Origin: Pseudanabaena sp. FACHB-1998
GTDB lineage: Bacteria > Cyanobacteriota > Cyanobacteriia > Pseudanabaenales > Pseudanabaenaceae
NCBI RefSeq assembly: GCF_014696355.1
Contig: NZ_JACJQA010000028.1
Span: 248,001 to 312,000, forward strand
DNA: 64,000 bases
Direction: 5' to 3'
Part shown: one piece after another, positions 5,605-59,930 of the stretch
Position numbering within the stretch: the stretch's first letter is position 1
Layout: every line of letters begins with the position of its first letter
Translations under genes and position numbers: made by a program
Notes under the pieces: generated by a model
Told to the model about the DNA's origin: nothing
Database searches by the model: none
What the model saw: the letters and a program-made list of their open reading frames with translations, nothing else

Positions 5605-6342
5605 ATGAAGCGTCTATTTGCGGGAGCTACCGATACTGGCTGTGTCAGATCAGCCAATCAAGATTCTTACCATATCGATCCTGAGGGACGATTTTTTGTA
5701 GTTGCGGATGGAATGGGAGGACACGCAGGAGGTGAGGTGGCAAGTCAAATTGCTGTCGATTCAATTCGCGCTTGTCTAGAGTCTCTTTGGGATGTTGAGA
5801 CTGATGTGCCGAAGTTGATGCAAGATGCGATCGACAAAGCTAATCAAGCCATTATTAACGATCAAATGTCTAATCCTGTGCGATCAGACATGGGAACAAC
5901 GGTTGTTGTATTGGTATTTCGCGACGAACAGCCTTGGTTTTGTCACATTGGCGACTCTCGCTTATATCGTTTGCGCGGAGCTAAGCTAGAACAAATTAGC
6001 GATGACCACACATGGATCGCAAGGGCTATTCAAACAGGTGTGGTGAATGCCGATGATGCCAAAAGCCATCCTTGGCGACATATGCTTTTGCAATGTTTAG
6101 GGCGCGAAGATCTCAAAGCGACAAGTGCTAAAGAAATCGAATGGCAACCTGGCGATCGCTTTTTGATCTGTAGTGACGGCTTAACCGAGGAACTCAGTGA
6201 CGATCGCATTGCTCATCAACTCAAGAGTATTCGGAATTGTCAGCAAGCCGCCCAAGCTTTGATTGAATCCGCAAAATTGCGGGGAGGACGCGACAACATT
6301 ACGGTAGTAATTGTGTCTAACGAATTAAATCCTCAGTCTTAA
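5605..6342 (+). CDS. PP2C-family Ser/Thr protein phosphatase (Stp1/PrpC type)
   Basis: 245 residues, a single PP2C domain without membrane segments. Metal-binding motifs are visible: 'SANQD' (16-20), 'VVADGMGGHAGGE' (D35-G36), 'SDMGTT', 'ICSDGLTEEL' and the terminal 'GGRDNITVVIV'. It removes phosphate from Ser/Thr of proteins in the cytoplasm. No partner kinase is adjacent; the preceding AarF-type kinase is of a different class. It starts at ATG in 'cctaacatgaag'. A long stem-loop follows. Confidence 0.93.
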   Translation: MKRLFAGATDTGCVRSANQDSYHIDPEGRFFVVADGMGGHAGGEVASQIAVDSIRACLESLWDVETDVPKLMQDAIDKANQAIINDQMSNPVRSDMGTTVVVLVFRDEQPWFCHIGDSRLYRLRGAKLEQISDDHTWIARAIQTGVVNADDAKSHPWRHMLLQCLGREDLKATSAKEIEWQPGDRFLICSDGLTEELSDDRIAHQLKSIRNCQQAAQALIESAKLRGGRDNITVVIVSNELNPQS

Positions 6343-59139: not shown

Positions 59140-59141
59140 GC

Positions 59142-59204
59142 CTTCCCACCAAAGAATTAGATATGCGGCGCTTCGCGCCGCATATCTAATTCTTTGGTGG
59201 GAAG
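59142..59204 (+). terminator. Perfect 30-bp stem-loop after the NfeD-like gene
   Basis: CTTCCCACCAAAGAATTAGA... around TTC; 3 bp after the stop. Flank GGTGGGAAG(A/G)(G/A)AGTAACAA shared with 8979-9048. Confidence 0.85.
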
Positions 59205-59211
59205 AGAGTAA

Positions 59212-59242
59212 CAACAAAAGACGACATTGTCGTCTTTTGTTG
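59212..59242. repeat. Perfect 14-bp stem-loop
   Basis: CAACAAAAGACGAC-ATT-complement. Confidence 0.75.
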
Positions 59243-59301
59243 CGGGTTTAATCCCCCATAAACATTAAAAAAAAATAATTTTCAAATATCTGACAAAAAA
59301 G

Positions 59302-59364
59302 TTTTCCACAGAGTTTTCCACAGATATTAAAGACTTTTCCACAGATAAAAGTTAGTTTTCCACA
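59302..59364 (+). other. Cluster of four DnaA boxes (candidate replication origin or DnaA-controlled site)
   Basis: The 9-mer TTTTCCACA occurs at 59302, 59314, 59335 and 59356, all on the plus strand, with spacings of 12, 21 and 21 bp. TTTTCCACA is the DnaA box form known from cyanobacteria (E. coli TTATCCACA). The surrounding DNA is AT-rich, starting with runs of A at 59268-59280. No dnaA or dnaN is adjacent. Confidence 0.7.
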
Positions 59365-59649
59365 GGGCTTTTTAGATTGAGAGATGTCTTCGCCTTACTA
59401 GTTAAGGATTCGTTAAAGAGAAAGGAACTGAGACTGGGGAAACTTTTGAATGGTTGCGTACTATGAATATATGTAAATAAATACCTATGATAATGCCGAT
59501 TCCATCAAAATTAAATCATTAAATCTTCATTTATGTTGAACCTTTCGTTACGTTGACAAGATCGGCAGGTTGAACGCACAATAAAATCCCGACCTCTGAA
59601 AATGGTTGCGACATCCCTACAGAACTTGTTTAAAAGTTGAGGTTTCAGC

Positions 59650-59871
59650 ATGAGTACGACCGTCAGCATCCTTGCCGAAATTCCCGAAGAATTGCACGAA
59701 ACTCTCAAAAATTATCTAGAGTCCCATCCTGATTGGGATCAAGACCGTGTATTTGCCGCAGCCCTATCTTTATTCCTACTTCAAAATGGGGGTAGCGATC
59801 GCCTTGGTGCATCCCACAGCTATCGCAGTACCGCCAAAGTCTATCTAAATGCCCTATTCCAGCACTCATAA
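59650..59871 (+). CDS. DUF2811 family small protein
   Basis: 73 residues. 'VSILAEIPEELHETLKNYLESHPDWDQDRVFAAALSLFLLQNG' is the DUF2811 hallmark, found only in cyanobacteria to my knowledge; function unknown. It looks like a small helical dimerisation or DNA-binding fold (ribbon-helix-helix-like at the N-terminus; inference). Flanked by the DnaA-box region and a stem-loop. Confidence 0.85.
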   Translation: MSTTVSILAEIPEELHETLKNYLESHPDWDQDRVFAAALSLFLLQNGGSDRLGASHSYRSTAKVYLNALFQHS

Positions 59872-59877
59872 ACCTGT

Positions 59878-59930
59878 TTAAGGAAATCAATAAAAATTTT
59901 GCAAAGCAGAATTTTTATTGATTTCCTTAA
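59878..59930. terminator. 21-bp stem-loop after DUF2811
   Basis: TTAAGGAAATCAATAAAAATT / complement, 11-nt loop; 7 bp after the stop. Confidence 0.78.

Follow-up and report, generated by a model that had tools for sequence, protein, structure and literature searches.

The locus and its four-box array

The window, as we call the whole 64-kb stretch of DNA that was analysed, contains four exact copies of the species DnaA box TTTTCCACA in an intergenic gap, with an NfeD-like gene on one side and DUF2811 and hemY on the other. The features of the locus, in window coordinates, are:

59260–59301, no strand: A+T-rich stretch preceding the array (86% A+T by composition), partly conserved in the genus
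59302–59310, plus strand: DnaA box 1, TTTTCCACA, exact match, offset −54 of the conserved array
59314–59322, plus strand: DnaA box 2, TTTTCCACA, exact match, offset −42
59335–59343, plus strand: DnaA box 3, TTTTCCACA, exact match, offset −21
59356–59364, plus strand: DnaA box 4, TTTTCCACA, exact match, offset 0; the last box and reference point of the array
59402–59416, plus strand: genus-conserved block TTAAGGATTCGTTAA, from the genus alignment and the consensus of the 196/197 spacing class
59435–59443, minus strand: weak box-like site in inverted orientation, reading GTTTCCCCA when reverse-complemented, two mismatches to TTTTCCACA
59460–59477, minus strand: degenerate HLR1-type (RpaB) site from a motif scan, three mismatches; much better in other families
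59553–59582, plus strand: probable core promoter of DUF2811, with −35 TTGACA (59553–59558), an 18-nt spacer and −10-like CACAAT (59577–59582)
59650–59871, plus strand: DUF2811 (PF10929) gene, 73 aa, Pfam E-value 1.1e-27
59878–59930, no strand: hairpin 3′ of DUF2811 with 25-nt arms, from an inverted repeat search

The preliminary description had reported four same-strand boxes within 63 bp, and these are exact, starting at 59302, 59314, 59335 and 59356 on the plus strand with spacings of 12, 21 and 21 bp. It had also called the gap AT-rich and had noticed no second such cluster. Both observations hold: the gap (59140–59649) is 63% A+T against 57% across the window, and no further exact copy of TTTTCCACA is present on either strand of the whole 64 kb. 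We infer from its sequence that CACAAT at 59577–59582 serves as the −10 element of the DUF2811 promoter, and the hairpin at 59878–59930 is probably a terminator between DUF2811 and hemY.

A chance cluster without function would be in keeping with the frequency of single-mismatch copies of the box in the window, which are no commoner than expected (26 found, 23.7 expected). Against this, 300 simulated 64-kb windows, generated by a Markov model with the same dinucleotide transitions as the window, gave a maximum of one exact same-strand box per 63 bp, with two boxes within 63 bp in none of them. The phylum-wide conservation described below refutes coincidence, to which we assign a negligible probability.

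The gap upstream of DUF2811 also holds one copy, with perfect 30-nt arms, of an interspersed hairpin family with the core GCGGCGCTTCGCGCCGC (59142–59204). Other copies lie, for example, at 2517, 8686, 8996, 30735 and 50183, and at three or fewer mismatches the family has 29 matches where 0.08 would be expected; as many of the sites count once per strand, these represent about 20 separate sites.

Conservation of the array upstream of DUF2811

The array was sought upstream of DUF2811 in related genomes, counting loci with at least 400 bp of upstream sequence and boxes within 730 bp, with strand-windows of equal size from other parts of these loci as controls. At least two exact same-strand boxes are present in 120 of 160 DUF2811 loci; of the 2,412 control windows, none has as many. 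Because the loci include near-duplicates, counting by family is more cautious. Two or more exact boxes occur in 20 of 27 families, and the cluster, which the preliminary description had suggested looking for in relatives, is conserved as at least two boxes with no more than one mismatch in 25 of the 27. A clear array is absent from families f9 and f14 among these 27, and family f17 has TTATCCACA in place of TTTTCCACA.

The common layout, seen in 133 distinct loci, comprises sites at −65, −54, −43/−42, −21 and 0, taking the first base of the last box as 0. The site at −65 is usually a weak TTTTCCCCA. Near +44, many loci also have a weak block resembling an inverted box, which lies closer to the array than its counterpart in the window. 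The usual spacings of 11/12, 21 and 22 bp correspond to about one and two helical turns. By these sequence comparisons, the array is kept across nearly all cyanobacteria before one small gene, DUF2811.

Spacing to the promoter and an HLR1-type site

An exact TTGACA follows the array in 120 of 131 loci, where shuffled sequences give 9% expected. The distance from the last box to this hexamer is 182–184 bp in 65 of the 120 loci and 196/197 bp in 24 (89 of 120 in these two classes); in the window it is 197 bp, from 59356 to 59553. Between TTGACA and the ATG lie anywhere from 60 to 445 bp. A cis-acting promoter element would be expected to show this combination, a constrained distance between array and promoter and a leader of variable length. 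At ~190 bp from the −35 hexamer, the array is more distant than classical activator or repressor sites usually are.

RpaB, a light-acclimation regulator, targets HLR1, which has the consensus (G/T)TTACA(T/A)(T/A)NN(G/T)TTACA(T/A)(T/A) (PMC11633204). Of 120 loci, 71 have an HLR1-type site with two or fewer mismatches between the array and the promoter, usually on the minus strand near +91. Shuffled sequences would give 1.6, and such a site is present in 10 of 858 control segments. The DUF2811 promoters resemble HLR1/RpaB light-response promoters (PMC11633204) in this enriched element, although the match in the window itself is weak, with three mismatches. Elsewhere, to our knowledge, the combination of an HLR1 site with a DnaA-box array has not been reported.

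Neighbouring genes

The genes upstream of DUF2811 fall into 72 different clusters, and the array is present in 84 of 89 loci whose upstream gene is co-directional. Downstream, the commonest genes encode protoporphyrinogen oxidases of two unrelated types, hemY-like in 55 loci and hemJ-like in 30 (85 of ~163; loci L011–L197), placed after DUF2811 as if one had replaced the other in situ. The clusters that we take to be hemJ and pth were named by eye from their sequences.

The frequency of these downstream genes is what would recommend a site regulating hemY, which would couple tetrapyrrole synthesis to replication; the preliminary description had offered hemY as one possible target. This proposal fares poorly, as the array is kept in all 18 loci with pth downstream and in 29 of 33 where the downstream gene runs in the other direction, and a hairpin separates DUF2811 from hemY in the window. 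We regard regulation of hemY as very unlikely. The other target named there, DUF2811 itself, is strongly supported as a DnaA-regulated gene by the sequence evidence of conservation, near-fixed promoter spacing and co-loss with dnaA (see below).

Relation to the chromosomal origin

The source genome (4.78 Mb in 64 contigs), which by its DUF2811 is closest to Pseudanabaena among named relatives, contains one other dense cluster of TTTTCCACA. It lies in an A+T-rich part of contig C20 (C20:30120-30325) and comprises nine exact boxes, five in plus and four in minus orientation, with dnaN as its left neighbour within ~1 kb. In the published layout of the cyanobacterial oriC, TTTTCCACA boxes stand beside dnaN (PMC4674748). 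The C20 cluster matches this layout, which argues that the array in the window is not oriC. The array, with four boxes against nine, is also not the main species-box cluster of the genome, and it lies beside neither dnaN nor dnaA. The latter gene is on a third contig, C23. Autoregulation of dnaA through the same boxes was considered and rejected for the source genome, in which no exact box adjoins or lies near dnaA.

One arm of the oriC of the source genome aligns with the array without gaps and in the same register, with 49 of 63 positions identical, so the array resembles an oriC-type DnaA assembly module. Compared with the cyanobacterial oriC (PMC4674748), it is alike in box sequence and in the 21-bp head-to-tail spacing; it differs in having a single orientation, no adjacent dnaN or dnaA, a position distant from oriC and a tie to a promoter. 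In a complete congener (G002), the DUF2811 array (0.071 Mb) and a two-orientation, oriC-type cluster (1.749 Mb) are separated by 1.68 Mb, and in a second (G023) the corresponding clusters are 1.37 Mb apart; the oriC-type clusters of these two genomes were identified by their boxes, dnaN having been located in neither. The GC skew of G002 (40 samples of 20 kb) is weak, fits no better than shuffles and favours neither site.

The preliminary description had proposed the array as a candidate oriC, a role that falls instead to the nine-box, two-orientation cluster near dnaN. An origin function of the array, as the main chromosomal origin or as a further active one, would draw on its four copies of the right species box at helical spacing, its A+T-rich flank and its gap-free likeness to the oriC arm, and some cyanobacteria fire from several sites (PMC7198777). 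The larger cluster beside dnaN in the same genome and the separation of 1.37–1.68 Mb in complete congeners tell against an origin, as does the near-fixed distance to the DUF2811 promoter, of which an origin would have no need. We therefore judge an origin in the window highly improbable.

Other box clusters and a datA/DARS-type site

A different role away from oriC would be that of a datA/DARS-type site, which titrates DnaA or changes its nucleotide state, with DUF2811 merely adjacent. The array has in common with E. coli datA, DARS1 and DARS2 (e.g. PMC5010248) that it is a DnaA-box cluster off oriC and probably a DnaA control site. Those are non-coding control regions, whereas the array is tied to the promoter of a single gene that shares the fate of dnaA. 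Dense head-to-tail boxes away from oriC and the array–promoter distance of ~190 bp are compatible with such a site, and several genomes have, 3′ of guaA, another triplet cluster that lacks a promoter, an indication that datA/DARS-type sites may exist in cyanobacteria. The phylum-wide linkage to DUF2811 while other neighbours change, the near-fixed distance to its promoter and the loss of DUF2811 itself with dnaA all weigh against mere adjacency, and we consider this explanation unlikely, if less so than an origin. The array could also do both jobs, as a datA/DARS-type site and as a promoter element.

The guaA cluster is a conserved triplet of boxes at 20/21-bp spacing, intergenic and 3′ of guaA in several families (L082–L087 and L089, near position 6000 of each). 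Its other neighbours vary and it has no obvious target promoter, making it a datA-like candidate; the source genome has no guaA-type pair of exact boxes. In one genome lacking dnaA (G265:C2:18150-18200), a box repeated three times without change, spacers included (TTTTCCACAAACTCTGTTACT), is probably an unrelated tandem repeat. Our literature search found nothing on point concerning cyanobacterial datA/DARS-type clusters or cyanobacterial DnaA ChIP-seq.

Loss of DUF2811 together with dnaA

We surveyed 390 genomes of the class, each at least 95% complete, for dnaA (PF08299) and DUF2811. dnaA is present in 372 and absent from 18. DUF2811 is found in 370 of the 372 genomes with dnaA, and the two exceptions (G014 and G063) are drafts of 460 and 380 contigs. 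Among the 18 genomes without dnaA, DUF2811 is absent from 13, is a frame with stops in two (G378 and G305) and is intact in three (G162, G325 and G365). The association is strong (Fisher p ~3e-22, for genomes that are not independent). Where DUF2811 is intact and dnaA is missing, the array has decayed: G162 has no box, and G325 and G365 have one exact box each. The length-matched, pan-cyanobacterial control ndhO (PF11910) is present in 18 of 18 genomes lacking dnaA, so the absence of DUF2811 is not an effect of detection or completeness.

Four genera (g83, g87, g133 and g137) contain both dnaA states. Their examined members with dnaA keep DUF2811 and the array (weaker in g83), and each member without dnaA either has no DUF2811 or has a decayed array. 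Taxonomic labels, rather than a tree, suggest at least six separate losses of dnaA. Such loss is known in free-living cyanobacteria, of which several lineages gave up DnaA (PMC7198777); we found no report in the literature of a gene lost along with dnaA in cyanobacteria. The usual disappearance of DUF2811 with dnaA makes it a good candidate for a piece of cyanobacterial replication control that is still missing.

The DUF2811 protein and copies on other replicons

Outside the class, no DUF2811 scored above the cut-off in the genomes sampled, and searches of PDB, Pfam, NCBIfam and PHROGs gave no significant remote homologue. Two AlphaFold models of the protein have low confidence and contain helices only. 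The sequence layout had hinted at a ribbon-helix-helix protein (strand-helix-helix fold), which neither a match in Pfam, NCBIfam or PDB nor a confident model supports. No paper naming ‘DUF2811’ was found in a literature search that had most subscription journals outside its reach.

Copies are also present on large plasmids of Nostoc and Acaryochloris (L198–L201), with the array kept at the Nostoc copies L200 and L201, and on two putative viral contigs from IMG/VR (L242:4001-4183 and L243:4001-4189) that have no boxes upstream; no characterised phage was found to encode the protein. These plasmid and viral copies are weak evidence, which suggests that the protein is useful to other replicons. 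Small-genome cyanobacteria of family f2 (e.g. G062, G286 and G401) have 2–5 copies of DUF2811, and some of the paralogues examined there likewise have box-like arrays upstream.

A proposed role in DnaA-dependent initiation

Taken from sequence evidence, the four boxes are probably a DnaA-assembly array that forms a distal upstream element of the DUF2811 promoter, and not a chromosomal origin. On this reading, DnaA would occupy the array across the phylum as an upstream element, and the gene that it serves would work in the DnaA pathway; we infer the binding by DnaA, and likewise the direction of regulation and what DUF2811 does biochemically. DnaA from three cyanobacteria binds the oriC boxes of S. 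elongatus in ChIP-qPCR (PMC7198777), and the DnaA proteins of E. coli and B. subtilis act as transcription factors (PMC11317965, PMC4447404). As at DnaA-regulated promoters of other bacteria, several DnaA boxes lie upstream of the promoter. The array differs from those in its position ~190 bp upstream, in its near-fixed spacing and in having a single phylum-wide target that is co-lost with dnaA. What would mark a DnaA-regulated promoter is seen here in the constrained box–promoter distance (89 of 120 loci) and in the decay of the array or loss of the gene where dnaA is missing.

For the DUF2811 promoter, we envisage that DnaA would bind the array cooperatively, as at the similarly spaced oriC module, and that array occupancy would set DUF2811 expression by the available DnaA, jointly with an RpaB-type regulator reporting on light. 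Binding would be read out at the promoter ~190 bp away, possibly via looping that involves the HLR1 site. As the gene appears to have little use in the absence of DnaA, DUF2811 may in turn feed back on initiation that depends on DnaA and oriC. Negative feedback would fit, with more free DnaA giving more DUF2811 and hence less initiation; a positive cofactor would fit equally, and activation and repression are both possible.

More tentatively, and with somewhat less than even confidence, we propose that DUF2811 is a cyanobacteria-specific protein that regulates DnaA-dependent initiation or serves it as a cofactor, and whose level DnaA availability and light would jointly set through the oriC-like array and the HLR1-type site. 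This would form a feedback loop from photosynthetic state to replication that is usually discarded when DnaA is lost.

We know of no equivalent of SeqA, YabA or SirA in cyanobacteria. DUF2811, with its conserved DnaA-box array, near-universal where dnaA is present and mostly gone where it is not, provides a concrete partner to test. As DUF2811 is a family of unknown function, a role in the DnaA pathway would be its first functional context. The result is a predicted phylum-wide DnaA-box promoter element together with a candidate DnaA-pathway gene, and the composite promoter suggests a direct route from light signalling to replication control.
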